From assembly GCF_018531495.1 (NCBI RefSeq), contig NZ_JAHDTI010000002.1, positions 806,001-870,000 of the forward strand: 64,000 nucleotides of DNA. Reading direction: 5' to 3'. The number at the start of each line of letters is the position of its first letter. Positions within the stretch are counted from its first letter, which is position 1. Below, one piece after another: positions 10,256-63,778 of the stretch. Under the pieces are notes generated by a model. The model was given only the letters and a program-made list of their open reading frames with translations, searched no databases and was not told the origin of the DNA. The position numbers and the translations under genes were made by a program. Origin of the DNA: Nonomuraea sediminis (lineage in GTDB: Bacteria; Actinomycetota; Actinomycetes; Streptosporangiales; Streptosporangiaceae).

Positions 10256-11659
10256 CTAACTGCCGAACGGGTGAGCCTCCTCGACCTGGGCGGCGATCCT
10301 GATCAGCAGGTCCTCCCTGCCGATGTCGGCCACCAGCTGGACGCCCACCGGCAGTCCCGTCGCGGTCCTGTGCAGCGGCAGCGAGATCGACGGCTGCCCG
10401 GTGGCGTTGAACGGCGAGGTGAATGACACCACGTGCGCGGTCCTGCCGAACCCGATGCTCAGATCGTCCTCGGGGATCCAGCCCAGCGGGAACGGCGCCA
10501 CCCCGACCGACGGCACGAGCAGCAGGTCGAACCCGCCGGCCCACCAGGAGGTCATCCGGCGGCGGAAGCGGTCGATCCACTGCGTGGCCAGGATGTGGTC
10601 GGCCGCGCTGCGGCCCCTGGCCACCGAGACCATGGCGGCGTTCCTGGGTTCGAGCTCCTCCAGGTCGACGGGCTTGCCGCGGAGCCGGCCGACGTTCTCG
10701 ATCTCGGCGGCCAGGTTGTCGGCCACGATCGCGCCGAAGTGCGTGGGGAAGTCCGGATCGCCGAGCGCCGCCGGGTAGCCGGGTTCGACGTCGTGGCCCA
10801 GGCCCTCCAGGATCCGCGCGGCCCTGGCCACGGCCTCGGCCACCTCCGGCACCGCGGGAACGTCGCCACGCGGGTGCACGTCGGCGAACCCGATCCGCAA
10901 CCGGCCGGGATCCGCGCCCACCTCCTCGGCCAGCGGCCTGCCCAGCGCGGGCGCGTCATACGGGTCCCCTGGCTGGTAGCCGGAGATCAGGTCGAGCGCC
11001 GCCGCCGTGTCACGCACCGTCCTGGTGACGAAGCCGTTGCAGGAGAACCCGTTCCAGCCCTCGCCCAGGGTCGGGCCGAAGCTGGAGCGCCCGCGGGTCG
11101 GCTTCAGCCCCACCAGGCCGCACAGGCTCGCCGGGATCCTGATCGAGCCGCCGCCGTCGCTGGCCGTCCCGATCGCCACCATGCCCGCCGCGACCGCCGC
11201 CGCCGACCCGCCGCTCGAGCCGCCCGCCGAGAACCCCAGGTCATAGGGGTTGCGCGTGGGGCCGAACGCCCGCGGCTCGGTGGTGATCGTGCTACCGAAC
11301 TCCGGGGTGTTGGTACGGCCGAGCATCACGAAGCCCGCCTGGCGCACCTTGACCACCCCGTGCGCGTCGGCGTCGATCCTGACCCCGTCCATGGTCCGCG
11401 ATCCCGCGCTGTACGGCTCGCCCGCCTGCTGCCAGCCCAGGTCCTTCAGCAGGATCGGCACCCCGCGGAACGGCGCGTCCTTCGGGATCTGGTCGACCTC
11501 CTCGAGCGCCCGCTCGAACCGCTCGTAGATCACGGCGTTCAGCGCCGGATTGCGCTCCTCGATCCTGGCGATCGCCGCCTCGACCAGCTCACGCGGGTCC
11601 AGTCCTTCGCGGACGGCCTCGGCCTGCCCGATCGCGTCCAGCCGCAGAATGTCGTCCAT
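10256..11659 (-). CDS. Amidase (amidase signature family)
   Basis: A 467-residue amidase-signature enzyme with a Ser-cisSer-Lys triad: Lys in GVPILLKDLGW, the glycine/serine-rich loop GFSAGGSSGGSAAAVAAG, and GTASDGGGSIRIPAS carrying the nucleophile. It hydrolyses C-N amide bonds in the cytoplasm; natural substrate unknown. ATG at 11659 follows a GAAGGGA site. The frame is open further upstream but would run into the next gene. The LLM oxidoreductase gene ends ten bases upstream, so the two form an operon. Confidence 0.9.
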   Translation of the reverse strand: MDDILRLDAIGQAEAVREGLDPRELVEAAIARIEERNPALNAVIYERFERALEEVDQIPKDAPFRGVPILLKDLGWQQAGEPYSAGSRTMDGVRIDADAHGVVKVRQAGFVMLGRTNTPEFGSTITTEPRAFGPTRNPYDLGFSAGGSSGGSAAAVAAGMVAIGTASDGGGSIRIPASLCGLVGLKPTRGRSSFGPTLGEGWNGFSCNGFVTRTVRDTAAALDLISGYQPGDPYDAPALGRPLAEEVGADPGRLRIGFADVHPRGDVPAVPEVAEAVARAARILEGLGHDVEPGYPAALGDPDFPTHFGAIVADNLAAEIENVGRLRGKPVDLEELEPRNAAMVSVARGRSAADHILATQWIDRFRRRMTSWWAGGFDLLLVPSVGVAPFPLGWIPEDDLSIGFGRTAHVVSFTSPFNATGQPSISLPLHRTATGLPVGVQLVADIGREDLLIRIAAQVEEAHPFGS

Positions 11660-11669
11660 GGTCGTCCCT

Positions 11670-12629
11670 TCACGCTCGGGGGGCCAGGTCGCGCACAGCC
11701 TGAGTGAGAGGGATCTCACCACCGGGGATCGGGGCGAGGACGGGGGTGTCGAGCCCGTTGTCGATGTACTCCTGGATGCGGGCCCGGCAGGTCGCGGCGT
11801 CGCCGTGGATGACCAGGGCGTCGACGACCTCGTCGGGGATCGATTTGAGCGCGGTCTCACGGTCGCGGGCGGCCCAGGCCTCGTGCATCGGCCGCAGCAC
11901 CTCGCCCCGGCCCAGCCAGTCGTGGAAGGCCGCGTAGACCGGCACGGTGAGGTAGCTGGCGATCATCCACCGGGCCAGCTGCCGCACCTGCTCGGCGTTC
12001 TCGCTGACGCACACGAACAGCCGCGCGATCAGCTCCGTGCCGGGCCCGACCTCAGCCCGGACCTTCCGCACGTCCTCGGGCGCCAGCCAGTTCGTGATCG
12101 CGCCGTCGGCCTCCTCGGCGGCCAGGTGGAGCATCCGCGGCCGCAGCGCCGCCAGCACGATCTTCGGCGCCACCCGCGGCGCCCGCTCCAGCTTGAACCC
12201 CTTCACCTCGAACGTCTCATACTTCTCCGAGACCTTCTCCCCCGCCAGCGCCGCACGCAGGAAGCGCAGCGTGTCGCGGGTGCGGGCGTACGGCTTGGCG
12301 AATGTGCCCGCGTTCCAGCGCTCCACGATGACCGGGGACGAGGATCCGATCCCGAGCACGAACCGCCCCGGCGCGAGGTCGGCCAGCGTGGCCGCCGACA
12401 TCGCCAGCAGGCCAGGACCCCTGGTGTAGACCGGGATGATGGCGCTGCCCAGCCTGATGCCCTCGGTCCACTCGGCGGCCATGGCCAGCGGGAGGAGGCC
12501 GTCGGCGCCGTTGACCTCGGCGGACCAGGCGTCGGTGTAGCCGAGTGCGGGCAGCTCGGCGATCAACTCCCGCGAGTCGGCCAGCGAGCGGTCGTGGAAG
12601 GGAATCGTCATGCCCCAGTTCTGCGTCAA
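11670..12629 (-). CDS. LLM class (F420-dependent-like) oxidoreductase
   Basis: A TIM-barrel flavin/F420 oxidoreductase of the luciferase-like monooxygenase superfamily, 319 residues from the start chosen here. Typical blocks are LGSAIIPVYTRGPGLLAMSAATL, LGIGSSSPVIVERW and the C-terminal IHGDAATCRARIQEYIDNGLD. TTG at 12629 is preferred because GGAGG (12635-12639) lies five bases upstream, giving MTQNWGMTIPFHD. An ATG at 12668 sits inside an operator-like palindrome, and an ATG at 12611 has no good site. Likely co-transcribed with the amidase. The choice of F420 over FMN is inferred from the actinobacterial context. Confidence 0.85.
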   Translation of the reverse strand: MTQNWGMTIPFHDRSLADSRELIAELPALGYTDAWSAEVNGADGLLPLAMAAEWTEGIRLGSAIIPVYTRGPGLLAMSAATLADLAPGRFVLGIGSSSPVIVERWNAGTFAKPYARTRDTLRFLRAALAGEKVSEKYETFEVKGFKLERAPRVAPKIVLAALRPRMLHLAAEEADGAITNWLAPEDVRKVRAEVGPGTELIARLFVCVSENAEQVRQLARWMIASYLTVPVYAAFHDWLGRGEVLRPMHEAWAARDRETALKSIPDEVVDALVIHGDAATCRARIQEYIDNGLDTPVLAPIPGGEIPLTQAVRDLAPRA

Positions 12630-17355: not shown

Positions 17356-18641
17356 CGTCCGCTACCTCCGTACACCACTGCTTCGACCTGGTCCGCGTCG
17401 AGGTCGAAGGCGCGGTGCGCGGCCGCCACGGCCGAGTCCACGTCGCCCTGCTCGACGATCACTGAGATGCGGATCTCCGAGGTGGAGATCATCTCGATGT
17501 TGACCCCCGCGTCGGCGAGGGCCGCGAAGAACGTCGCGGTGACGCCGGGGTGCGAACGCATGCCCGCGCCCACCAGCGACACCTTCCCGATCTGGTCGTC
17601 GAACAGGAGCGACTCGTAGGCGATGTCACCCTGGATCTTCTTCAGTGCCGTGAGCGCCGTCTGGCTGTCGGCCGTCGGAAGCGTGAAGGAGATGTCGGTG
17701 CGACCCGTCGCAGCGGCCGAGACGTTCTGCACGATCATGTCGATGTTGATCTCGGCTTCGGCCAGCGTTTTGAAGATCGCGGCAGCCTCGCCGACCTTGT
17801 CGGGAACCCCGACAACGGTGATCTTGGCCTCGCTCCGGTCGTGCGCGACGCCGGAGATGATCGGCTGCTCCATCTCATGTCCTTCAATGTCAGGGTCTTC
17901 GGTGTAAGGGTCGGACACGACCCATGTGCCTTCCTTGGTGCTGAACGAGCTGCGGACGTGGATCGGCAGATCGAAGCGGCGAGCATACTCGACGCACCGC
18001 AGGTGCAGGATCTTGGCGCCGCAGGCCGCCATCTCCATCATCTCGTCGTAGGAGATCTTGGGGATCTTGCGGGCGGGCGGCACGATGCGCGGGTCCGCGG
18101 TGAAGATGCCGTCCACGTCGGTGTAGATCTCGCAGACGTCGGCCTCCAGGGCCGCCGCCAGCGCGACCGCGGTGGTGTCGGAACCGCCGCGGCCCAGCGT
18201 GGTGATGTCCTTGGTGTCCTGGGAGACACCCTGGAAGCCGGCCACGATCGCGATGTGGCCCTTGTCGATGGCCCCGCGGATGCGGCCGGGCGTCACGTCG
18301 ATGATGCGCGCCTTGCCGTGCGAGGAGTCGGTGATCACACCCGCCTGCGAGCCGGTGAACGAGCGCGCCTCGTGACCCAGGTTGGCGATCGCCATCGCCA
18401 GCAGGGCCATCGAGATCCGCTCACCCGAGGTCAGCAGCATGTCGAGCTCGCGGCCCGGCGGCAGCGGTGATACCTGCTCGGCCAGGTCGAGGAGCTCGTC
18501 CGTCGTGTCGCCCATCGCGGAGACGATCACGACCACGTCGTTGCCGGCTTTTTTCGTCGCGACGATCCGCTGCGCGACCCGCTTGATGCAGGACGCGTCG
18601 GCGACGGACGAACCACCGTACTTTTGCACAACGAGCGCCAC
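17352..18641 (-). CDS. lysC: Aspartate kinase (alpha and internal beta subunit)
   Basis: A 429-residue aspartokinase: ATP-dependent phosphorylation of L-aspartate, first committed step of the aspartate family. The N-terminal kinase domain has KYGGSSV (7-13) and FTADPR; two C-terminal ACT domains bind the feedback inhibitors (Lys plus Thr in this class). As in Corynebacterium, a second start inside the gene at 17873 (residue 257) can produce the beta regulatory subunit; see the separate entry. Followed directly by asd. The DUF5063 gene ends 72 bases upstream on the same strand, so lysC may have its own promoter or read on from recR. Confidence 0.97.
17868..17885 (-). promoter_or_regulatory. 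Internal ribosome-binding site and start of LysC beta subunit
   Basis: An in-frame ATG at 17873 ([10 protein letters not shown]) is preceded at six bases by GAAGGA (17880-17885, minus strand). The position matches the beta-subunit start of alpha2beta2 aspartokinases, whose beta chain (here about 173 residues) consists of the ACT domains only. Confidence 0.7.
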
Positions 18642-53461: not shown

Positions 53462-54064
53462 CTAGGTTCTCACGAGCCTGCGTGAAATCAATTGTTCGAC
53501 GAGGAAGGCGTTGGTGGCTTGCTCGTCAAGTGCGGGTACCTCGACCGTCAAAGCGGCATTCTGGCGGGCGAGTTCCGCGTAACCGTGGCGGACCTGATCG
53601 CGATTCAGGTCATCTCTTTCGAAGGGGGTGGTGAACACGAACACCACGTCGGCCGCCATGTTCGTCCACACCGAGCTGATCATCGCGAGAAACGCTTGTT
53701 CGTCCACGCCGAGGCTGCCTAAGTCGTTGCCGTACCAGCCGTAGGCCACGGTGGACCACCACCATCTGTCGAGAATGACGCCGCGTTCTTGGCGAGCCCT
53801 GGTTAGTGCGGTCATGTTCTCTGCGTGGCAGGCGAGGTGGAGAAGTTGGCGTGCTAACGCTGAGGTGATCGTGGCGCTTTCGGTCAGGGCATAGATATTC
53901 GTCGTCACGTCCGTCAGGCCGGATGGCATGTGCGTGAACAGCGGCGTGGGGGTGGCCCAGTCAAGGGCGGCGAGTTTTTGGCGCTGCGTGGTTTTTCCGG
54001 CACGATCCAGCCCCTCCAGGACAACGAGCGAGCCAGGCTGCAGGTGCAGCTGTCGCCATGCCAT
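53462..54064 (-). CDS. Thymidylate kinase-like P-loop (deoxy)nucleotide kinase
   Basis: A protein of about 200 residues with Walker A GLDRAGKT (18-25) in the thymidylate-kinase context LVVLEGLDRAGKTTQRQKLA and the DR(Y/F)xxS-like motif DRWWWSTVAYG (from D99), which in dTMP kinases contacts the nucleotide. It would phosphorylate a deoxynucleoside monophosphate; in this cluster 5-hydroxymethyl-dUMP is an attractive substrate (inference). ATG at 54064 has GGAG upstream; a GTG at 54136 overlapping the upstream stop (GTGA) is possible. Operon with the MazG-like gene. Confidence 0.75.
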   Translation of the reverse strand: MAWRQLHLQPGSLVVLEGLDRAGKTTQRQKLAALDWATPTPLFTHMPSGLTDVTTNIYALTESATITSALARQLLHLACHAENMTALTRARQERGVILDRWWWSTVAYGWYGNDLGSLGVDEQAFLAMISSVWTNMAADVVFVFTTPFERDDLNRDQVRHGYAELARQNAALTVEVPALDEQATNAFLVEQLISRRLVRT

Positions 54065-54132
54065 GTGCGCCGCTCCATGGGTTTTGTTGATGTGGGCTGA
54101 GCGATCCGGCACTGGCTCTCGGCCGGGGCCGA

Positions 54133-55029
54133 TCACACCAGGTGCTGGCCGGGGGGTTCGACGGTGAGCGTCTGCTGGTCAAGATCCAGATGGAGGATGC
54201 CTCCCTCGCTCTTGCGCAGCTGCCGCCAGGCCGCATACCCGGTCAAAATCGTCCGCTCCCAGTCTGCGGCGGGCAGGACGCTCACCTCAAGGTGGGACGT
54301 CATGGCGGCGATGGTCTTGAGCAGATCGTGGTCGATGTGCTGCACGTTCTCGAAGTAGCCGTGCCGGGCGGCGTAGGAGAACACCAGAGCGGAGATGCCC
54401 TCCTCGATGGCGATGGCCCGGCCGCCGTCCTCGGCCTCGTCGATCATGGGGTCGCTCTTGCGCTTGCAGCCCAGCAGGAAGCGGGTGACGGGCGACCAGC
54501 CCAGGACGGCGGCGTGGGCCAGGTGGAAGACGTCGTGGAAGCGGTAGTCGTCGTCGATGTAGGAGGCGTTGGTGAGGGGGTCCCCGCAGCTGGCGCCGTC
54601 GCGGGTGAGCAGCGCGACCGTACGGCCCTGGCCGGTGCGCTGCAGCGCGAAGGTGAGGGTTGCCCGGCGGGGTAGTTGCTCGGCTTCAGGGAAGGCCTCG
54701 TCGAAGAGAGTGCGCTCAGCCTGGGGGGTGGGCAGCCACCGATCCTTGATCTTGACGAGGCTGGCCGCGGCGATGTCTTCCAGGTCGAGGTCGAAGCGGT
54801 GGGCGAGGGCGGCGACATACCACAGGACGTCACCGAGTTCTTCGCGCAGATACTGCTTGCCGGAGACCATCCCGGGCCCGTCTCGCAGGTGCTTTTTGTA
54901 GGCGGTGGCCAGCGATCCGACCTCCCCGACAAGGCCGAGCAGGGGGACGAGCACGGGATCGGCGTCAGGGACTGCCGGTTGAAGGGTTTTGATCGCTGCC
55001 TGCTGATATCGGGCGAAGTCCACGCGCAC
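54133..55029 (-). CDS. MazG-like nucleotide pyrophosphohydrolase with extra C-terminal domain
   Basis: A 298-residue protein. The N-terminal 100 residues have a MazG-like all-alpha NTP pyrophosphohydrolase core, GLVGEVGSLATAYKK and LREELGDVLWY (E36, E64, D67), though the second Glu of the first ExxE is Ser (EVGS). The remaining 190 residues (YRFHDVFHLAHAAVLGWSPVTRFLL, then EDGGRAIAIEEGISALVF) are helical and His/Asp-rich, and the family is unknown to me. It could remove competing dNTPs such as dTTP or dUTP. First gene of a leftward operon, divergent from the carrier-protein operon. Confidence 0.7.
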   Translation of the reverse strand: MRVDFARYQQAAIKTLQPAVPDADPVLVPLLGLVGEVGSLATAYKKHLRDGPGMVSGKQYLREELGDVLWYVAALAHRFDLDLEDIAAASLVKIKDRWLPTPQAERTLFDEAFPEAEQLPRRATLTFALQRTGQGRTVALLTRDGASCGDPLTNASYIDDDYRFHDVFHLAHAAVLGWSPVTRFLLGCKRKSDPMIDEAEDGGRAIAIEEGISALVFSYAARHGYFENVQHIDHDLLKTIAAMTSHLEVSVLPAADWERTILTGYAAWRQLRKSEGGILHLDLDQQTLTVEPPGQHLV

Positions 55030-55053
55030 TCCTGTCGGATAGTCCGGAACTGT

Positions 55054-55070
55054 CGTCGGCTAAGCCGACG
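55054..55070. promoter_or_regulatory. 17-bp palindrome between the divergent operons
   Basis: CGTCGGCT-A-AGCCGACG, perfect eight-base arms around one base, lying between the MazG-like and carrier-protein genes. Possible -10 boxes (TATGCT, TAGAAC) follow at about 55078-55088. Probable operator for the XRE regulator encoded at 55403; inferred from position and symmetry. Confidence 0.55.
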
Positions 55071-55124
55071 CGTGTCGTATGCTAGAACAGTGCTGCTGGA
55101 AAATCCGACGAACGGGAGAGTCTC

Positions 55125-55406
55125 CTGAACGCGATCGAGCCGTCCCTGGAGGACATCGTTGCCGTGGTCGTGGAGTTCCTGGCGCTGCTGCTGGATCGCG
55201 ACCCCGACGAGTTGCGCATGGAACTGGAATCAGCCGGCCAGGAGTTGCCCGTCGATTCGATCCTGGTCGTGGAGATCTTGACCCGGGTCGAGGCGCGGTA
55301 CGGGATCACCATTCGCGCCGACGCGGAGGCGGCCCGCTCCACACGGTCGGTCTACACCTTCGCGGCCACCGTCCTGAACACCATCAAGGAGACGCAACCC
55401 TCATGA
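55125..55406 (+). CDS. Acyl carrier protein-like (phosphopantetheine-binding) protein
   Basis: About 93 residues if translation starts at the unusual CTG at 55125, which has GGGAG/GAG four bases upstream; otherwise GTG at 55164 or 55170. The sequence follows an ACP: helix I LEDIVAVVVEFLALLL, then ELPVDSILVVEILTRVEARYGITI with Ser in the DS(I/L) position that accepts 4'-phosphopantetheine, and a final TRSVYTFAATVLNTI helix. It would carry an acyl or aminoacyl thioester. The stop overlaps the XRE start (ATGA), so it is coupled to the downstream regulators and the synthase. Confidence 0.7.
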   Translation: MNAIEPSLEDIVAVVVEFLALLLDRDPDELRMELESAGQELPVDSILVVEILTRVEARYGITIRADAEAARSTRSVYTFAATVLNTIKETQPS

Positions 55407-55825
55407 CCCCTGCTGCTGCCGACTCCCGCGGCCGCGACCCCGAGGTGGAACTTCTCGGCGAACGCCTGCGCCATACCCGTGACTACCTGGGCATGTCCCA
55501 GCAGTACGTGAGCGACATGACCGGGATCCCGCGCTCGGCCGTCAGCGACATCGAGCGAGGTGCCCGGCGCGTGGACAGCCTGGAGCTGAAGAAGCTCGCC
55601 CGCCTTTACACCCGGCCGGTGTCCTACTTCCTGGCCAAGGAGGAGGAGGCCGATCTCGGTGAGCACGCGCTGGCCGGGCTTCCTCGTGCACTGGTCGGGT
55701 TGACCGATGGCGACTGGGAGGAGGTCATCAGCTTCGCCGAGTTCCTGAAATACCGCCGTGCCCACGAGCAGGAAGCGGAGCACGAGCTGGGCGGTGACAC
55801 GGTGCCTTCGAGGCAGGCGGAGTGA
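55403..55825 (+). CDS. XRE family repressor-like regulator
   Basis: A 140-residue Cro/C1-type regulator: LGERLRHTRDYLGMSQQYVSDMTGIPRSAVSDIERGARRVDSLELKKLARLY is the helix-turn-helix. A helical C-terminus follows. It overlaps the carrier gene upstream (ATGA) and the ImmA/IrrE gene downstream (GTGA). XRE plus ImmA pairs are typical switch modules of mobile elements, in which the protease inactivates the repressor on damage or stress. Confidence 0.9.
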   Translation: MTPAAADSRGRDPEVELLGERLRHTRDYLGMSQQYVSDMTGIPRSAVSDIERGARRVDSLELKKLARLYTRPVSYFLAKEEEADLGEHALAGLPRALVGLTDGDWEEVISFAEFLKYRRAHEQEAEHELGGDTVPSRQAE

Positions 55826-56730
55826 ACTGGGACGTGGCCCACCGGGTTGCCTCGATGGCCGCCGCACAGGCGCATCGCGACCTGGAGCTCGACCGTCTGG
55901 AGTATGTCGATGTCTATGCCGCGCTCCGCCAGGCCGGGGTGGACGGCATGGCCCGGCCTATGTCACGGCTGTTCGGGGTGTACGTCTCGCCCCAGCACAA
56001 CGGGCCCGCCGTACTGCTCAACGCCAACCTCGACATCATCGCCCAACGGCACACGGCTGGGCACGAGCTGGGGCACCACCTGATGCGCCACGGTTCGGCC
56101 TTCGATAAGGAGCTGGATCGTGCCACGCGCTGGGGGGATGGCTCGTGGCCCGATGAGGAGAAGGTCGCCGAAGCGTTCGCGGCCTGGTTTCTCATGCCGC
56201 CGCCCGCCGTGCACGTCGCGCTCGCGCGGATCGGTGTGCTCCGGCCGCGGCTTCCCGAGCACGCCTACCAGGTGGCCCGCTGGCTGGGCACCTCGTATGC
56301 GGGGACGGTGCACCACTTGCACCGGCTGCGCCTGCTGACCGGCGAGCAGAGGGGCGTGTGGCTGAAGGCCAAACCCGCTGCGCTCAAGGCCTCGCTGGCC
56401 GACGGGCCCGTCGCCGGCAAGGCCCATGTCCACGTCGTCGCCGCCGGCGCGCACCGCTCCACCGTGCGGGCCGACGTAGGAGACCTGATCGTGCTGCGGA
56501 GCCCGGGGGCCCACTTCGACGCCTTGCCACAGGGCTTGCTGCCTGCGGATACAGGACAGGGGCGGCTCTTTGAGGAGGAGTGCGCGCTCATGAGTGCCGC
56601 AGAAGTCACCGACGCCTTCACCGGGACGGCCGAGGTGAGGGCCCGAATGTCAGATGGCGTGGACGTCCTCGAGATCACCGTGCAGCGGCAGGCGCCCCGG
56701 GCCGACGTCCAGGCTCTCTGGCCGGCCTGA
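55822..56730 (+). CDS. ImmA/IrrE family metallo-endopeptidase
   Basis: A 302-residue protein with zinc protease motif HELGH (81-85, in TAGHELGHHLMRH) and the third ligand in the helix EKVAEAFAAWFLMPP, characteristic of ImmA/IrrE (COG2856). The C-terminal third (about 200-300) is an extra domain of unknown function. The partner is the XRE protein upstream (GTGA overlap). Presumably cleaves that repressor and so switches the cluster on. The thymidylate-synthase-like gene follows 59 bases downstream. Confidence 0.9.
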   Translation: MNWDVAHRVASMAAAQAHRDLELDRLEYVDVYAALRQAGVDGMARPMSRLFGVYVSPQHNGPAVLLNANLDIIAQRHTAGHELGHHLMRHGSAFDKELDRATRWGDGSWPDEEKVAEAFAAWFLMPPPAVHVALARIGVLRPRLPEHAYQVARWLGTSYAGTVHHLHRLRLLTGEQRGVWLKAKPAALKASLADGPVAGKAHVHVVAAGAHRSTVRADVGDLIVLRSPGAHFDALPQGLLPADTGQGRLFEEECALMSAAEVTDAFTGTAEVRARMSDGVDVLEITVQRQAPRADVQALWPA

Positions 56731-56789
56731 CCCGCACTTCCCGCCTCTTGGCATACCGCTTCGACTCTCACCGAATTGCAGGAGCAGCG

Positions 56790-57587
56790 ATGTACACCTT
56801 CACCATCGCCGAGGAGAACACATCTCTGGCCTGGAGCGCCGCCTGCCGCGCCCTGGACACTCCCACCAACCCGCGCCGGGACGGATTTCACACCGTGGTC
56901 CGCATCGGCGACGCCACCGCCGAAGACCCGCAGGTGCGCGCCCATCTCGACCAGGTGCGCCAGCAGTACGGCTACGACCCGATCGAGACCGTGGCCAACA
57001 CGATTTTTCCCGCCAGGCTGGCGGCCGCGTGCTCCTCCCCTGCCGAGCTCGCACTCCGCTACCGGAACATGTATCCGCAGCTCAAGCGCATGCACAGGCG
57101 AAACCGAGGCGGAACCTACTTCGGCCGTGTCGTCGCCTACCCCGGCGAGCACGGCCAGGTCGACCAGCTGAGCGCCATGATCGACCGCATTCGCACGCAG
57201 GCCGCACGCACCGGACCGATGAGTGCCGCCTACGAGATGGACATCGCCCACCCCGGCGACCTGGATCGCGATACGGAGACTTGGTCGACGCCGGTGCACG
57301 TCGCCGGCAAGGACAACGGCTACCGCGGCTTTCCGTGCCTGAGCCACTGCTCCTTCCAGCTCGAGCGAGGTCAGGTCCTGCACGCGGTGGCGCAGTACCG
57401 CAGTCACTACATGGTGGACCGCGCCTACGGCAACTACCTGGGCCTCGGGCGCCTGCTGGCCTACCTGGCCCAGCAGGCGCAGGTGCTGCCTGGCGGCCTC
57501 ACGGTGATCGCCGGGCACGCCCAGATCGAAAAGCACCTCACCGTCATCCGTCCAGTGATCCACAACCAGTTGCCGATCCCGGCCTGA
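56790..57587 (+). CDS. Thymidylate synthase-like enzyme (putative dUMP hydroxymethylase)
   Basis: A 265-residue protein whose C-terminal half aligns by eye with thymidylate synthases: nucleophile Cys183 in FPCLSH, the phosphate-binding YRS (203-205), Asn215 in AYGNYLGLGRLLAYLAQQA at the position that selects dUMP rather than dCMP, and His243 in AGHAQ. The N-terminal part differs from canonical ThyA. In phages such homologues hydroxymethylate dUMP or dCMP for DNA modification. AGGAG precedes ATG 56790. It lies in the carrier/XRE/ImmA operon and converges with the base-hypermodification gene 20 bases away. The exact reaction is inferred. Confidence 0.75.
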   Translation: MYTFTIAEENTSLAWSAACRALDTPTNPRRDGFHTVVRIGDATAEDPQVRAHLDQVRQQYGYDPIETVANTIFPARLAAACSSPAELALRYRNMYPQLKRMHRRNRGGTYFGRVVAYPGEHGQVDQLSAMIDRIRTQAARTGPMSAAYEMDIAHPGDLDRDTETWSTPVHVAGKDNGYRGFPCLSHCSFQLERGQVLHAVAQYRSHYMVDRAYGNYLGLGRLLAYLAQQAQVLPGGLTVIAGHAQIEKHLTVIRPVIHNQLPIPA

Positions 57588-57607
57588 CACGGGGCCTCAT
57601 GCCAGCT

Positions 57608-58642
57608 CTACGCCGGGTGGAGTGCTGGCGTGTTGACCCCCCACTTGGGCGGAAACCATGCCGTCAGAGGGGCTGGATCTGGCCGGTAGAGCTGTTTGAT
57701 ACGGCTGCGCCCGCTGATGCCGGCAATGTCTGGATGCGCCACCCGGGCGTACTTGTCGACCTCGCAGAACAGATTCTGGCAATCGATGAGTTGCAGTGGA
57801 CGGCCGCGCAGCCCGGTGAAGCACAGCTCCAGCCGGGCAAAGTGCTCCGTTTGGGTGTCGGCCATGTAGCGGATCACCTCGGCCTCGATGCCGTCGGCCG
57901 CCGGGCCAAAGCACTTGCGGATACCGTCGCGGGCCCCTGGCCCGGGGACGACGAAGTCCATCTCGGAAAAGGACAGGTGGGCTGAGTAGTTCAGATCGAT
58001 CAGGTACTGGTAGGCCAGGAACGGGCCTAGCGCCGGGAAGTCCAGCAACACCTCGTAGGCCTCGCGCATGGACGCGGCCTCCTGAATGCGGGCAGGTGCC
58101 CTGCCGTTCATCATCATCTCGATGAGCCGCAAGTGGTTGCTGTGCTTACGCTGCTGACCCAGCGCCGGCGGGGGGGTGATGTAGGCGGCAGAGTACAGCC
58201 GCTCTCCCGCCGCGAACGCGCTGGACAAGATCCGATCCCAGGCCGTGAAGTCGTATCCGCTCCATGTCGGCTCGCCAAGGTGCCTCTCAAGAAGCTGCCA
58301 GGTCGTGACCTTGTTGAACACCTTGAACAGCACCGTACGGAAGTACACCTCCGGCCAGTCCTGCTCTCCTCGGTAGGACACCTGGCCGATCAGGTACTGG
58401 CTGACGCGGTCGGCGGCACGAAAGCAGTTCGTGAAGCGGTGCTGAGCCAAGACAGGGTCGTGGGGAGCGCGCGGCGCCTCCCCCAGCCTCGCCAGATATA
58501 CCTGCTGCCTGGCCGCCGCGAAGCGCCAGTAGGTATCGAAGACGGGCGTGGGCCGCAGCGTACGTCCCGCAATCCTCACCGCAGGAGGCGGGGCCCAGCC
58601 TTCCGGTCGAGGTGCGGGCAGAGCTTGCAGCGTGGGTGCCAT
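57608..58642 (-). CDS. Putative DNA base hypermodification protein (5-hmdU DNA kinase helical-domain family)
   Basis: A 344-residue protein recognised as the helical domain family found in 5-hydroxymethyl-dU DNA kinases and the related alpha-glutamyl/putrescinyl-thymine pyrophosphorylases. Diagnostic blocks: HRFTNCFRAADRVSQYLI (69-86), RKHSNHLRLIEMMMNG (165-180), DLNYSAHLSFSEMDFVVPG, ARDGIRKCF (237-245) and LIDCQNLFCEVDKY (285-298). No Walker A is present, so it is not itself a P-loop kinase; it probably recognises or modifies the base in DNA. ATG 58642 follows an AT-rich promoter-like stretch (58646-58670) shared with the divergent small gene. Confidence 0.75.
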   Translation of the reverse strand: MAPTLQALPAPRPEGWAPPPAVRIAGRTLRPTPVFDTYWRFAAARQQVYLARLGEAPRAPHDPVLAQHRFTNCFRAADRVSQYLIGQVSYRGEQDWPEVYFRTVLFKVFNKVTTWQLLERHLGEPTWSGYDFTAWDRILSSAFAAGERLYSAAYITPPPALGQQRKHSNHLRLIEMMMNGRAPARIQEAASMREAYEVLLDFPALGPFLAYQYLIDLNYSAHLSFSEMDFVVPGPGARDGIRKCFGPAADGIEAEVIRYMADTQTEHFARLELCFTGLRGRPLQLIDCQNLFCEVDKYARVAHPDIAGISGRSRIKQLYRPDPAPLTAWFPPKWGVNTPALHPA

Positions 58643-58691
58643 GGAAGGAATATATATTGAATATAGGCTTCGTTCTAGGAAAAGGACATGG

Positions 58692-59000
58692 ATGAAACTG
58701 CTGTGGCGTAGCCAACGCCGCAACACCTTGGTTTCTTGGCCGCATGCCGTCGATGATCGGTTGGAGCGGCTGGTGGCCGCCGGACTCGCGGCCGGCGAGA
58801 ACGTGAGTCGCTCCCAAGTGCTGGCCGCCCTGGTGGCCAGCACCGAAGTCTCTCCCGAACAGGTATCCGCCCTTGTCCGGGCGTATCGCCGCATGCCTGC
58901 GGAGGCGCTTGACGAGCATCCGGACACCGCCGACGAATGGCCACAAGTCCGGCATCCAGGGCCGCGTCGGGGAGCCGGCGAGAAGCCGGCCGGAGCCTAG
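58692..59000 (+). CDS. Small RHH-like protein
   Basis: A 102-residue protein, with AAAGGA upstream of ATG 58692. The segment VDDRLERLVAAGLAAGENVSRSQVLAALVAS resembles a ribbon-helix-helix (CopG/Arc-like) DNA-binding fold; the C-terminus is charged and Pro-rich. It diverges from the base-hypermodification gene across an AT-rich promoter, so a local regulator role is plausible. Assignment by pattern only. Confidence 0.55.
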   Translation: MKLLWRSQRRNTLVSWPHAVDDRLERLVAAGLAAGENVSRSQVLAALVASTEVSPEQVSALVRAYRRMPAEALDEHPDTADEWPQVRHPGPRRGAGEKPAGA

Positions 59001-59359: not shown

Positions 59360-59875
59360 TCATGGGGGATCGCCACACATGTTGGCCGCACCAGATGCAC
59401 CGGCTGGGAGTTTCCGGCCTGATCCTGCGGAGAAGTGCTTTGGTCTAGCTAGACGAGGCTCTGCCAGGCTCTGCCATCTGTTCCGCTTGGTGCTCAACCG
59501 GAATATCGGCTGGCGCTGCTCCAGCTCTTCCAAGATTCGAAACGCGGTCGCCCGGCTCGGCAGCTCGATCTCGCCTGGCCCGTGCCGTGTCTCAAGCCGC
59601 GCTGCGGTCCGCCGGATCACCATCATGCGCGACGGCTTGGACTCCTCGACATGCTCCGCCATGATTTCCAGCGCCGTCTCGGTCCATCGGGGAGAAATCA
59701 CCCGAGCGGTGCCGGTCAGCAAGGCGCGGGCTGACACTCGCCGCCAACTGCCTTGCCCGTCCTTAGCCAGTACTTCCAGGCCGGCGGTGGTGGCGACCAC
59801 CTCCTCCACCGACAGGACCTCACCGTCATGGACGAGTCGGGTTCCGACTCCGAGTCGCACCGATTCGGGGTTCAC
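59360..59875 (-). pseudogene. TnsB-like transposase, N-terminal fragment
   Basis: 171 codons, of which the first 140 match the N-terminal DNA-binding region of actinobacterial Tn7-like TnsB/Mu-type transposases (VHDGEVLSVEEVVATTAGLEV, then IVRRTAARLETRHGPGEIELPSRATAFRILEEL-like order and FRLSTKRNR). The protein then diverges abruptly after KRNR, where the catalytic DDE core should follow; a full TnsB has some 600-700 residues. A 10-base tandem duplication marks the break. The start overlaps the tnsA stop by four bases (GTGA), the native tnsAB arrangement. Non-functional as a transposase. Confidence 0.7.
59456..59475. repeat. 10-bp tandem duplication at the tnsB break
   Basis: AGGCTCTGCC occurs twice in direct tandem (59456-59465 and 59466-59475), next to the 10-base palindrome TCTAGCTAGA (59444-59453). 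This is exactly where the TnsB similarity ends, so it probably records the rearrangement that truncated the gene. Confidence 0.75.
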
Positions 59876-60609
59876 GGGATCACACTCAGCCGATGGTCAA
59901 GGCTCAATGGCTTGCTCAAATCGGTCGTAAGCCGCTGAGTCCAGAGCGCATGCAGAAGTGCTGGTCGCACTTGCCACGATGGCCAGCCATTGAAGCTCTC
60001 CAGCGCCTCCGCGAGGGTGACGCCGTCCAGGTTCGCGTTCTGGATCTCGGCCAGGGCCCGTTCGTCAATCAGCCATGCACGCCGGTAACCGGCCAGGAAT
60101 CGGAGATTCGCCAACTCGGCGACGGGAGGTTCGGACCAGATCTCAAGCCGCCAGCCACGCGCTTCCACGATTGCCCTCGCCCAGCTCAGGGCTCTTGCGA
60201 CCTTGGGCTTCTGGCGTAGATGGCTCGGCTTGACGTCCACCACGAGCGGGGCTTCGCCAGGTGTAGGGACGAGCAAGTAGTCCGGGACGTGTCGACGCCA
60301 GACGCCGTCTACCTGGGCCTTGAGGAGGAACGGCTGAGCGACGACCTTCCGTACGCCCCGATCGAAATCGACATAGATCAGCCGGGCAAGTTCGAGACGT
60401 GACTCATAGATCACATGATCATGGTTGGTGGCGCACCAGTAGGTTCCCGAGTAGTGCTTCTGACCGGCGTGCGAACGAAAGTTCCGCCACGGTACGGCCG
60501 CACCCCAGGCGTCGGCGGGGATCTCGCGCCAGGCACGGTCCTCCTCCATGCGCCCATCTTCCGTACGGAGACTGACCAGCGCGGTGTCGACCTCAACGTC
60601 AACCGCCAT
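59872..60609 (-). CDS. TnsA-like heteromeric transposase endonuclease subunit
   Basis: A 245-residue protein with the TnsA nuclease core: VIYESRLELARLIYVDFD, then HVPDYLL and LVVDVKP, giving the restriction-enzyme-like catalytic set (Glu69 or Glu73, Asp110, Asp125-x-Lys127). In Tn7-like elements TnsA cleaves the 5' ends of the transposon while TnsB cuts the 3' ends. The gene appears complete, but its partner downstream is truncated and no tnsC or tniQ is visible here. Also resembles the stand-alone TnsA-like proteins of actinobacterial islands. Confidence 0.8.
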   Translation of the reverse strand: MAVDVEVDTALVSLRTEDGRMEEDRAWREIPADAWGAAVPWRNFRSHAGQKHYSGTYWCATNHDHVIYESRLELARLIYVDFDRGVRKVVAQPFLLKAQVDGVWRRHVPDYLLVPTPGEAPLVVDVKPSHLRQKPKVARALSWARAIVEARGWRLEIWSEPPVAELANLRFLAGYRRAWLIDERALAEIQNANLDGVTLAEALESFNGWPSWQVRPALLHALWTQRLTTDLSKPLSLDHRLSVIP

Positions 60610-60828: not shown

Positions 60829-63681
60829 TCAGTGCTGAGCCATATCCACAAACCTGCTGTAGTGACCCTGAAACGCCACCGTCACCGTGGCCGTGGGCCC
60901 ATTACGATGCTTGGCCACGATCAAGTCCGCCTCCCCAGCCCGAGGCGACTCCCGCTCGTACGCATCCTCCCGATGCAACAGGATGACCATGTCGGCATCC
61001 TGCTCGATGCTGCCCGACTCGCGAAGGTCGCTCACCGCTGGGCGTTTGTCGGTGCGTTGTTCGGGGCCTCGGTTGAGCTGGGAGATGGCGATGACGGGGA
61101 CCTCGAGCTCCTTGGCCAGCAGCTTGATGGCTCGGGAGATCTCCGAGACCTCGTTCTGGCGGCTCTCGGTCTTCTTGGGCGAGCTCATCAGCTGCAGGTA
61201 GTCGATCACGACGAAGCGCAGGTCGTTACGCTGCTTGAGGCGGCGGCACTTGGCGCGGATCTCCATCATCGACATGTTCGGCGAGTCGTCGATGAACAGC
61301 GGCGCCTCGGCCACCTCACTCATCCGCCGCGCCAGCCGCGTCCAGTCGTCATCACCCATCATCCCGGACCGCATGGCGTGCAACGCCACCCGAGCCTCAG
61401 CCGACAGCAGACGCATGGTGATCTCGTTACGCGACATCTCCAGCGAGAAGATAACGGTCGTCATCCCATGCTTGATAGCCGCCGACCTGGCAAAATCCAG
61501 CCCCAGGGTGCTGTTGTGCGTCGGGATGCAGGTTCTGCCGGCCAGGTACATGTGGTCGGCGTTGTCCACCTCGACGCAGCGGACGGGCCGCGAGGCGATC
61601 GGCCTGACGTCGACGATGTACCGAACCATGGTCGAGGCCGCGGCGACGGCCACCTGCCGCTCCGCCTTGCGCCCCAGCCGGAACACCTTGTCGGCGGTCG
61701 TAAAGTTGATCATGTAGCAGGTGGACGATTCCTGGGTTCGCCCCCGGACGGGTTTCGTGCGCATGGTGGCCCGATAGCCGAGGCTCAGGATCAGCTCGTG
61801 TACGTCCTCGGCGAGCCTCCTGTTGGTGACCGCGAACTGGATCTGCCCCGCGGTGCTGACGTACCCGTCGGTGTCCAGCAGGCCCGCCAGCAGGGCACGC
61901 CGCTGTGCCGCCGACGCGCGGAGGTAGCTCCGCGGTATGTGCTTGTCGCCGAGCACCCCCAGCGTCCGCAGGACGGCCTTGACGGTCCCGTGATGGTCGC
62001 GGCATGGCTGGCAACGTCGCAGGCCGCTGGACGGCGCGCCGCAATCGGGACGGGTCGGCGCGGGTACGGGAGCCGAGACGAAGCGGGCCTTGCCGCCACA
62101 CGTCCGTCCACAGGTGCGCACCTGCGAGGTGGCGGGGGTGAAGCGCGCTCCGCATACGGCGCAGGAGCGAGGAGCGGGTTCTGGCTCGGCGAAAGCGAGC
62201 TGGTAGGTGATCCCGTCCGCCACTCGGGTGACCCGCAGTTCTTCGGCCTCGAGGTTCGCCAGGATCTCGGCGTCCATGGAGGTGATCCGAGCCTCCTGGG
62301 TGGCGCCGTCGCCCAGCCAGGCGCCCAGGACGTACGGGGACAGGGGGAGGTCGCCCTCCTCCAGGTCGAAGGGGGCCGCTACGGCGACGGCGTGGTTCGG
62401 TCGCTGGTCGGCCGACACGCAGCGGAGGGTGGCGGCGATCTCCTCGGTGGTGACGATGTCGGAGTGCCGCGCTGTCGTCGCGGCGTTCTTGGGCCTGCCT
62501 ACGCGCTCGAGCAGGGCGCCCAGCAGCCTGGCGGCCGGATACGCGGGAGCGCTTCTACCGCTCGTCGGGCCCGTCGCGGTCTGGGGGATGCGGTCGAGTG
62601 CGGGGATCGTCCGCTGGACCGTGTGCAGGACGTGGCGGAACTCCTCGCCCACCTCGCTCAGGGCTTGGCGATGGGTGATCAGGCGGTCGGGAGTGATCAG
62701 CGATCGGGCATGGGCCTGCCCGACCCGTTCGATCGCGTCGGCGGGCCAGTAGTACGTCCGCTTGTGCTCCTGCGCTTGGCGGCGGGCGGCGCGGGTGGTG
62801 GTGCGCCACTGGTGGTGGGCGTCGGCGACGATGACCGTGCCGTCGCTGAATTCGACCTCGTAGCACGGCCTGCCGTGCATGACCTCCGTGGCGGCGACGA
62901 CGCGGGTGGGCTTGCCGTCGGCGCCGATGAGGTGGTCACCGACCTGCACCTCTCCCATCGTGGTCCAGCCGGACGGCGTCGGCAGCGGGGTGTCCAGAGC
63001 GAGCGCCTTGCCGATGGCGGGGCGGGCGGCCACGACGATCATCTGGCCGGGGTGGAGGCCGTTGGTCAGTTGGTCGAGGTCCTGGAAGCCGGTGGGGACG
63101 CCGACCATCTGGCCGCCTCGGCTGCCGATGGCCTCGAGTTCGTCGAGGGCGCCGGGCATGATGTCCGAGAGCGGGGCGTAGTCCTCCGAGGTGCGGCGTT
63201 CGGTGACCTTGTAGATTTCCGCCTGGGCGCGGTCTACCAGGTCGTCGACCTCTTCGTTGTTGCCGCCGTAGCCGAAGGAGACGATGCGCGTGCCCGCTTC
63301 GATGAGGCGGCGCAGGATCGCCTGCTCGCGGACGATCTTGGCGTAGTAGCCGGCGTTGGCCGCGGTGGGGACGACGGCCGTGAGCGTGTGGAGGTAGGCG
63401 GCGCCGCCCACGCGGGCCATCTCGCCGCGCTTCTGCAGTTCGTCGAAGACGGTGACGGCGTCGGCCGGCTCGCCCCTGCCGTACAGGTCGGTGATGATGT
63501 CGTAGATCATCTGGTGGGCGGGGCGGTAGAAGTCGTCGGAGCGCAGGATCTCGACCACGTCGGCGATCGCGTCCTTGGACAGCAGCATGCCGCCCAGCAC
63601 GGACTGCTCCGCCTCGATGTTGTTGGGTGGGGTGCGCTCGAAGCCTGGGCCTCCGCCGCCCTCTTCTTCCATACTGCTCAC
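60829..63681 (-). CDS. dnaB: Replicative DNA helicase DnaB with class 3 intein
   Basis: A 950-codon gene; the spliced helicase would have 452 residues. N-terminal domain (PPNNIEAEQSVLGGMLLS) and RecA-like C-terminal ATPase (IFSLEMSRNEITMRLL, VVIDYLQLM, EQDADMVILLHREDAY) are typical. The P-loop is interrupted: ARPAIGK is followed by a 498-residue intein and resumes STLGLDFARS. The helicase unwinds DNA at the fork. GTG 63681 has GAGGGGG about five bases upstream; ATG 63672 is an alternative. Splicing must occur for activity because the intein sits between the Walker A Lys and Ser. Confidence 0.95.
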   Translation of the reverse strand: MSSMEEEGGGGPGFERTPPNNIEAEQSVLGGMLLSKDAIADVVEILRSDDFYRPAHQMIYDIITDLYGRGEPADAVTVFDELQKRGEMARVGGAAYLHTLTAVVPTAANAGYYAKIVREQAILRRLIEAGTRIVSFGYGGNNEEVDDLVDRAQAEIYKVTERRTSEDYAPLSDIMPGALDELEAIGSRGGQMVGVPTGFQDLDQLTNGLHPGQMIVVAARPAIGKALALDTPLPTPSGWTTMGEVQVGDHLIGADGKPTRVVAATEVMHGRPCYEVEFSDGTVIVADAHHQWRTTTRAARRQAQEHKRTYYWPADAIERVGQAHARSLITPDRLITHRQALSEVGEEFRHVLHTVQRTIPALDRIPQTATGPTSGRSAPAYPAARLLGALLERVGRPKNAATTARHSDIVTTEEIAATLRCVSADQRPNHAVAVAAPFDLEEGDLPLSPYVLGAWLGDGATQEARITSMDAEILANLEAEELRVTRVADGITYQLAFAEPEPAPRSCAVCGARFTPATSQVRTCGRTCGGKARFVSAPVPAPTRPDCGAPSSGLRRCQPCRDHHGTVKAVLRTLGVLGDKHIPRSYLRASAAQRRALLAGLLDTDGYVSTAGQIQFAVTNRRLAEDVHELILSLGYRATMRTKPVRGRTQESSTCYMINFTTADKVFRLGRKAERQVAVAAASTMVRYIVDVRPIASRPVRCVEVDNADHMYLAGRTCIPTHNSTLGLDFARSAAIKHGMTTVIFSLEMSRNEITMRLLSAEARVALHAMRSGMMGDDDWTRLARRMSEVAEAPLFIDDSPNMSMMEIRAKCRRLKQRNDLRFVVIDYLQLMSSPKKTESRQNEVSEISRAIKLLAKELEVPVIAISQLNRGPEQRTDKRPAVSDLRESGSIEQDADMVILLHREDAYERESPRAGEADLIVAKHRNGPTATVTVAFQGHYSRFVDMAQH
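61513..63006 (-). other. DnaB intein (class 3, LAGLIDADG endonuclease-bearing)
   Basis: 498 codons inserted in the Walker A motif. It begins ALALDTPLPTPSGW, without an N-terminal Cys or Ser, and ends IPTHN before the extein Ser. The WCT set of class 3 inteins is present: Trp in ADAHHQW (block B), Cys in VRCVEVDNADHMYLAG (block F), Thr in IPTHN (block G). A DOD endonuclease lies in the middle, with motifs LGAWLGDG and LAGLLDTDG. Between them is a Cys-rich insert (CAVCGARF, TCGRTCGG, PDCG, RRCQPC) that could bind zinc. Confidence 0.9.
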
Positions 63682-63778
63682 CGCGCCCCCTCGAACCTTG
63701 CAGGCGGTCGCACCACCCCCACTTGTAGCCGACCGGGGTGACAGTTTGGCGGGTTCTCGTCGGGACGGCAACGAGGGT

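Follow-up and report, generated by a model that had tools for sequence, protein, structure and literature searches.

In phages, modified thymidines are known to shield the viral DNA. The thymidine hypermodification of phages M6/PaMx11, ViI and phiW-14 has reportedly been described by Lee in 2018 and 2022, and HMUDK_hel, MazG and thymidylate synthase (TS)-like domains are said to have been predicted by Iyer in 2013 and by Burroughs in 2015 to act in DNA modification or in nucleotide-centric conflicts; to our knowledge, neither of the latter two describes an association with a carrier protein or with AcpS. Here, we analyzed a gene set of this kind in Nonomuraea sediminis (assembly GCF_018531495.1, contig NZ_JAHDTI010000002.1, positions 806,001–870,000; this whole 64,000-nt stretch is referred to as the window). 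Positions 53462–59000 of the window hold eight open frames, labelled A to H, whose products include an HMUDK_hel protein, a TS-like enzyme, a carrier protein and a repressor–protease pair. The explanation that we favor, with confidence slightly better than even, is that the genes form an anti-phage module, inducible and horizontally mobile, which makes a thymidine analogue modified at C5.

Thymidine hypermodification in phages is described in parts of two published sources (PMC11955845, PMC6449724). According to parts of the 2026 DefensePredictor paper, 42 of 94 E. coli units were validated against phages; the newly validated domains include 5-hydroxymethyluracil kinase and thymidylate synthase, while MazG and MazG-C appear there as predicted, not validated, defence domains (PMC13092281). 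For the CapH–CapP pair, part of another report states that single-stranded DNA (ssDNA) activates the cleavage of CapH by CapP (PMC10904395).

Gene content and conservation of the cassette

The eight genes are arranged compactly. Genes B (54133–55029) and then A (53462–54136) occupy the minus strand, and C (55164–55406), D (55403–55825), E (55822–56730) and F (56790–57587) follow one another on the plus strand. Gene G (57608–58642, minus strand) points back at F, and H (58692–59000, plus strand) diverges from G across a gap of 49 nt. Overlaps of 4 nt were found for C/D and D/E; A and B overlap by 4 nt with the listed GTG start of A (54136) and are about 68 nt apart with the likelier ATG at 54064.

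Profile searches identified A as a thymidylate-kinase-like P-loop kinase (PF02223, 1.2e-9; TIGR00041, 2.7e-13), B as a MazG pyrophosphohydrolase with a MazG_C part (PF03819, 7e-7; PF18722, 7.6e-77), C as a carrier protein with a phosphopantetheine-type Ser (PF00550, 3.4e-5), D as an XRE repressor (HTH_3 PF01381, 1.3e-10), E as an ImmA/IrrE (M78) metalloprotease with the motif HELGH (PF06114, 1.3e-7), F as a divergent TS-like enzyme (TIGR03283, 6.8e-9; alignment A2) and G as an HMUDK_hel protein (PF18723, 6.3e-110). The assignments of G and of the MazG_C part leave no ambiguity. These frames and matches bear out the compact set of proteins named by a first-pass annotation, which had been made from the sequence alone: its thymidylate-kinase-like P-loop protein, its TS-like, MazG, carrier and XRE–ImmA identities and, for the 57608–58642 protein, a profile match to a hypermodification family, the lack of which it had named as one of two refuting outcomes. 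None of the eight proteins matched a nuclease, and a restriction-modification system was rejected as a candidate on that ground.

Scanning of GTDB contigs yielded 564 confirmed relatives, of which the best 80 loci were analyzed, a sample in which close relatives dominate. The second set consisted of 28 HMUDK_hel loci, mostly from drawn genomes and including the previously known G699. It omits the window itself, genomes G291 (a 3.2-kb contig), G033 (the same as L034) and G692–G694, and the hand-picked loci L167, L168, L170 and L171; five of its loci share sequence with the first 80 (L140/L050, L146/L065, L172/L084, L178/L074 and L169/L071). With profiles iterated from the window proteins, B was detected in 63 of the best 80 loci, F in 61, E in 58, H in 34 and A in 8. 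The quartet of XRE, M78, TS and HMUDK_hel genes was present in 57/80 loci, in 9/28 loci of the second set and in 3/12 viral-contig loci.

The cassette of carrier, XRE, M78, TS-like and HMUDK_hel genes, often with MazG, recurs in Actinomycetota, Planctomycetota, Chloroflexota, Myxococcota and Proteobacteria. The one-strand order carrier–XRE–M78–TS–HMUDK_hel was observed in Planctomycetota (L073, L077), Chloroflexota (L086, Dehalococcoidia), Proteobacteria (L085, L088, L163), the Myxococcota draw (L179) and Actinomycetota outside the class of the window (L141, L144). The module is more than a chance neighborhood, because the same families stand in recurring order across many genomes; conservation of gene order, which the first-pass annotation had wanted checked among actinomycetes, was found there and in other phyla. 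For H, which had been called ribbon-helix-helix-like, a conserved gene is indeed present (profile match in 34/80 loci; alignment A5); the ribbon-helix-helix look was seen by eye only, and H had no Pfam match.

The match of G to PF18723 covers positions 1–280 of 281 at 367.4 bits (cut-off 25), which makes it a full-domain family match; no P-loop domain was matched on G itself in the profile scan. Many polar residues are invariant in the 47-sequence alignment of G, and R45, N72, R75, D78, N110, D216, GPG and CE..KY.R are common to the three phage relatives compared, those of PaMx11, a Salmonella Kuttervirus and LuckyBarnes. A tblastn search of 50,697 phage records found relatives of G in 484, with coverage of at least 80% in 35; the PaMx11 relative is flanked by a P-loop kinase gene on one side and a thymidylate synthase gene on the other. 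These records and the PaMx11 gene context support the kinship with phage thymidine hypermodification that had been proposed from the sequence. PaMx11_46 matches PF18724 (ADDT, amino acid:DNA transferase), a family with no match in the N. sediminis genome; no control genome matched it, and the sensitivity of this search is unproved. Direct kinship between HMUDK_hel and ADDT received an hhalign probability of 1.9, although a C..K motif lines up.

As an alternative, the locus might be a remnant or cargo of a phage that shielded its own DNA with these genes. HMUDK_hel relatives are common in phages, the quartet occurs in 3/12 viral-contig loci, and at the profile level A and F are related to thymidylate kinases and synthases of phages. 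However, neither A nor F had a tblastn match at 1e-5 in the 50,697 phage records, the identity of G is 52–80% among the bacterial rows of alignment A1 but does not exceed 39.4% with the best-ranked phage record, and the neighboring genes are those of a transposase, not of a phage. We regard a phage origin of this kind as highly improbable. A phage gene set as such was likewise rejected on the missing tblastn matches of A and F, albeit with their profile-level kinship. Viral-classed contigs L110, L112 and L113 carry the quartet, and L110 has nearly the whole window cassette, including A and B; these contigs may be mobile elements or host sequence.

Kinase A belongs to the thymidylate-kinase family. 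Its score against the dTMP_kinase model TIGR00041 was 50.1 bits, below the cut-off of 83.25; its profile (A4) matched solved thymidylate kinases at 1e-14, and PF18748 was not matched. In L077, a single open reading frame (ORF) combines Thymidylate_kin (9.6e-14) with HMUDK_hel (2e-113), as checked against Pfam, and kinase and HMUDK_hel profiles also fall on one ORF in L113, L179, L180 and L181, giving five such loci in total. Because the two domains are fused in these loci, A and G together look like the split form of a kinase–HMUDK_hel enzyme. An A-like kinase lies near G in only 8/80 loci; elsewhere, therefore, a host kinase would serve, or G would have an activity of its own.

F is the weakest identity call of the module. 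Its family scores were low for PF00303 (0.024, below the cut-off) and phrog_160 (7.9e-6), and its match to TIGR03283, a methanogen-type TS model, reached 35.5 bits versus a cut-off of 174.55. Cys183 and the dUMP-type Asn215 are invariant among the 26 aligned TS-like relatives of alignment A2; the Arg after the Cys region of canonical enzymes is not invariant in this alignment. The hhalign probability was 94 against the PaMx11 TS and 77 against the LuckyBarnes TS. The earlier call of a TS-like enzyme with a dUMP-type Asn thus held through its two invariant residues, with weak family scores. In a reciprocal test scoring up to nine candidates per genome, full-length F was found in 4/297 genomes of the order, and HMUDK_hel adjoined it in 4/4. 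The A2 profile matched 54/297 genomes, 50 of them by weaker (E 2.7e-9 or worse), partial-profile matches.

An ordinary thymidylate-synthesis operon was rejected, since two ThyX matches and, separately, a thymidylate kinase were found in the genome. Several further TS-related genes were observed. The N. sediminis genome has another thymidylate-synthase-family gene (L105, 1324–2268; 314 aa) besides the two ThyX matches, and many genomes of the family encode a separate protein, mostly of ~200–260 aa, with a short TS-like match (G000:C23:788436 in the own genome; L188–L203). On a Rhizobium plasmid (L095, 5681–6479), the match to the TS-like profile is divided between two overlapping frames, resembling a split gene. 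By eye, a second TS-like gene follows the cassette in L141 (10377–11429) and L179 (within 10601–12527), and a dCTP-deaminase-like gene follows it in L179 (within the same interval) and L181 (11464–12252).

The MazG part of B matched solved dCTP pyrophosphatases; for MazG_C, no solved relative was found. The acidic motif of MazG was intact in 60/65 proteins from TS loci versus 7/21 from TS-less loci, as counted by one regular expression on proteins with E < 1e-80, overlapping loci included. As the motif is kept mainly with TS, the pyrophosphohydrolase appears to go with the nucleotide-making version of the cassette, and MazG_C with HMUDK_hel may be a smaller core used in other settings. In the TS-less loci L069 and L071, a ThsB_TIR (Thoeris-type) gene lies near MazG_C and HMUDK_hel (2.1e-21 and 1.7e-17, respectively); similar TIR sequences were seen by eye in L075, L142 and L176.

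These neighbors bear on an alternative in which the product is a free nucleotide, either an antimetabolite or an immune messenger, that G never puts into DNA and that TIR proteins elsewhere may read. The thymidylate kinase and MazG families act on free nucleotides, and MazG_C is retained where the MazG motif is lost, both in line with such a product, as are the ThsB_TIR genes in L069 and L071. The TIR genes belong to the TS-less setting, however, and not to the one described here, and phage relatives of HMUDK_hel are located in gene sets for DNA modification. On balance, we judge a free-nucleotide product unlikely.

Carrier protein, repressor–protease pair and palindromes

Gene product C matched PP-binding PF00550 at 24.5 bits, over the cut-off of 20.8. 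In the carrier alignment, the Ser is conserved in 54/54 rows and the Asp before it in 52/54. The carrier profile matched in 53/57 quartet loci, 50 of these directly 5' of XRE; it was seeded partly by position (the ORF before XRE), so that counts in the first 80 loci are not blind. Quartets of the second set had it in 8/9 cases and those of viral contigs in 2/3. The six quartet loci without a profile match (L045, L048, L049, L055, L174 and the viral L112) each show, on inspection by eye only, a frame that resembles a carrier and contains the Ser. With the profile found in 53/57 quartet loci, the carrier protein of the first-pass annotation proved to be a recurring part of the cassette.

AcpS-like genes were present in 8/80 loci. 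Besides these, one in L144 lies on the opposite strand (PF01648, 1.4e-9), and in L095, the Rhizobium plasmid, a neighboring gene is labelled acpS by the record. The sequence data suggest that C is a phosphopantetheine-type carrier with predicted phosphopantetheinylation, for which the AcpS-like neighbors provide indirect support. The listed GTG start of C (55164) seems to lose the first helix; by eye, the true start is perhaps an upstream unusual codon within 55100–55170.

The carrier and the TS-like enzyme might instead make a secreted nucleoside antibiotic, as a small nucleoside natural-product cluster. Carriers and AcpS are typical of secondary metabolism, and the hosts include actinomycetes. 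In contrast, the occurrence of cassettes in Planctomycetota, Chloroflexota and Proteobacteria, the lack of any transporter or adenylation enzyme in the eight-protein set and the misfit of the MazG and XRE/M78 parts make such a cluster very unlikely. The literature searched, judged by titles and abstract openings, held nothing fitting on a carrier protein in anti-phage nucleotide modification.

The XRE gene D and the M78 protease gene E, with HExxH present as HELGH, form a CapH/CapP-type arrangement. The best PADLOC match of E was capP (2.1e-9); for D, the best match was RmrA (4e-12), and capH was matched at 7e-9. A papain-like C1 peptidase gene follows the M78 gene in L043, L044, L083, L095, L112, L144 and L179 (PF00112 in L083 and L144) and is perhaps a second protease switch.

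Both divergent promoter regions contain palindromes. The B–C gap (55030–55163) includes a candidate operator, the perfect 17-nt palindrome CGTCGG-N5-CCGACG at 55054–55070, followed by a related imperfect site seen by eye. The pattern GTYG-N7-CRAC was found in the same gap in 29/43 relatives versus 75/8600 base shuffles, where the shuffles preserve base content only and the related loci are not independent. The second palindrome, TATATTGAATATA at 58653–58665 in the G/H promoter, is the sole match in the window at up to one mismatch (0 in 100 shuffles), and a core of the ATATATATT type lies upstream of G in 26/59 relatives. Far from the cassette, at 17798–17814, the window has a second perfect match to the operator pattern, TGTCGGGAACCCCGACA.

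Distribution and genomic setting

HMUDK_hel is encoded once in the 12.09-Mb genome of N. sediminis and is sparsely distributed. It was present in 8/297 genomes of the order and 6/396 genomes of the phylum (own genome included in both), in 5/398 genomes around Massilia G692 and 5/246 around Planctomycetota G694 (centers included), in 10/195 around Myxococcus G693 (center and the previously known G699 included) and in 0/14 control genomes. Relatives of G occurred in 20 of 72,556 plasmid records, one of them next to genes with caspase and pYEATS annotations.

Between the cassette and dnaB (60829–63771, minus strand; PF03796, 1.6e-100), the likely insertion neighborhood, the window encodes a TnsB-like N-terminal piece of 171 aa (59360–59875, minus strand) and a TnsA-like transposase endonuclease (59872–60609, minus strand; NF033179, 4.2e-67). 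The 171-aa piece matched the 813–820 aa TnsB-like proteins of L043 (1.2e-38) and L038 (4.2e-33). Upstream of its cassette, L043 has a TnsA match, a TnsB-like protein, TniB (1.7e-12) and TniQ (1.5e-24), and L038 has dnaB, TnsA and a TnsB-like protein. The window therefore has the appearance of a Tn7-like insertion that has decayed beside dnaB. A complete Tn7 set (TnsA, TnsB, TnsC/TniB and TniQ) was not found between the cassette and dnaB, TniB and TniQ not having been scanned for in the rest of the window, and no clear terminal repeats were seen among the longest repeats listed. The flanking dnaB contains an intein with LAGLIDADG homing endonuclease domains (LAGLIDADG_3, 2.1e-9).

The first-pass annotation had interpreted the locus as a chromosomal DNA hypermodification module. 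Its hypermodification kinship stands; a standing chromosomal mark, by which the host would modify its own thymines constitutively for self-recognition or regulation, agrees less well with the setting. In its favor, HMUDK_hel is kin to phage DNA-modifying loci. The repressor–protease pair and the promoter palindromes, however, argue for a system that is off by default, no restriction nuclease was found among the eight proteins, and the gene is sparse and has transposase neighbors. A constitutive mark of this kind is quite improbable in our assessment. Sparsity, the Tn7-like remnant, the CapH/CapP-like pair and the TIR, caspase and pYEATS neighbors in other lineages are better explained by an inducible defence.

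Proposed pathway and comparison with described systems

For this inducible defence, we infer the trigger, the target, each chemical step, the operator function, the carrier cargo and the anti-phage outcome as follows. In the off state, the XRE protein D would occupy the palindromic operators of the divergent promoter. The M78 protease E would then cut D, as CapP cuts CapH, in response to a signal that is probably ssDNA or DNA damage during infection. Once the module is on, F would activate dUMP at C5, yielding 5-hydroxymethyl-dUMP or another adduct, and kinase A would lift the modified nucleotide towards the triphosphate or act jointly with HMUDK_hel, with MazG/MazG_C predicted to clear the competing normal nucleotide. 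G would elaborate the base, either in DNA, as happens in phages, or at the level of the nucleotide, and the phosphopantetheine-type carrier C would deliver or capture the added group. The product would be directed against phage replication. More tentatively, the module may represent an immune pathway in which a phosphopantetheine carrier helps to build a hypermodified thymidine: the carrier thiol could trap the reactive C5-methylene of dUMP made by F for tethered processing, or it could supply an acyl or aminoacyl group that HMUDK_hel transfers. We consider this role of the carrier possible but doubtful.

Several results weigh against the anti-phage module. No nuclease or toxin family was matched among the eight proteins in the profile scans, which leaves the killing step without explanation. 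The solved-structure search returned no relative of HMUDK_hel at a meaningful E-value and no TS with the F profile, and F remains below the curated cut-offs of TS families. A-like kinases near G are scarce (8/80 loci and 7/28 in the second set), and the quartet was present in only 9/28 second-set HMUDK_hel loci; HMUDK_hel therefore occurs in other settings too. Four non-actinomycete carriers (L073, L077, L085 and L095) matched no Pfam family, so that outside actinomycetes the identity of the carrier rests on alignment, position and an AcpS neighbor. On the regulatory side, D scores RmrA above capH, and the strict operator pattern with one mismatch is not enriched across the whole window (6 found versus 3.32 expected). 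Finally, an Azotobacter MazG–HMUDK_hel DNA query, an indirect look at kinship with the validated system, had no match in the E. coli collection.

If the explanation holds, an enzyme family known from phage shields would have been turned into a weapon of the host by its placement in cellular cassettes, together with a carrier and a regulator of the infection type. Participation of the carrier in the chemistry would link carrier-protein assembly lines to nucleotide modification, and defence would gain a new principle, namely assembly-line chemistry that acts on a nucleotide, is switched on by infection and travels with Tn7-like elements. HMUDK_hel, MazG_C and the TS-like family, all without a solved relative in our searches, would gain a function.

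Parts of the locus resemble described systems. Like Tn7-like transposons with their TnsA–TnsB–TniB–TniQ genes, the cassette has TnsA and TnsB-like genes beside it, with fuller sets in L043 and L038; the window differs in having only TnsA and the 171-aa TnsB-like piece and no clear terminal repeats. The CapH–CapP regulation of CBASS (Lau 2022, as cited in the part of PMC10904395 considered here) resembles the present pair in the succession of an XRE repressor and an HExxH M78 metalloprotease. There, the pair controls a cyclase, whereas here it accompanies nucleotide-modifying genes, D is nearer to RmrA models, and the response to ssDNA is a prediction. The E. coli systems of DefensePredictor, with TS, dNMP kinase and 5-hydroxymethyl-dU kinase domains, share the same enzyme classes, and their anti-phage activity was measured; the parts of that paper considered give no gene order, no carrier and no indication of whether both domains share one system (PMC13092281).

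The likeness to phage hypermodification, as represented by PaMx11, lies in an HMUDK_hel gene beside P-loop kinase and TS genes and in the shared invariant residues of G. The phage additionally encodes ADDT, an FAD oxidoreductase and an acetyltransferase, none of which was seen in the cassette, and its kinase, unlike A, is not of the thymidylate-kinase family. Compared with the phage hypermodification sets, the cassette adds a carrier protein, MazG_C and a repressor–protease pair.

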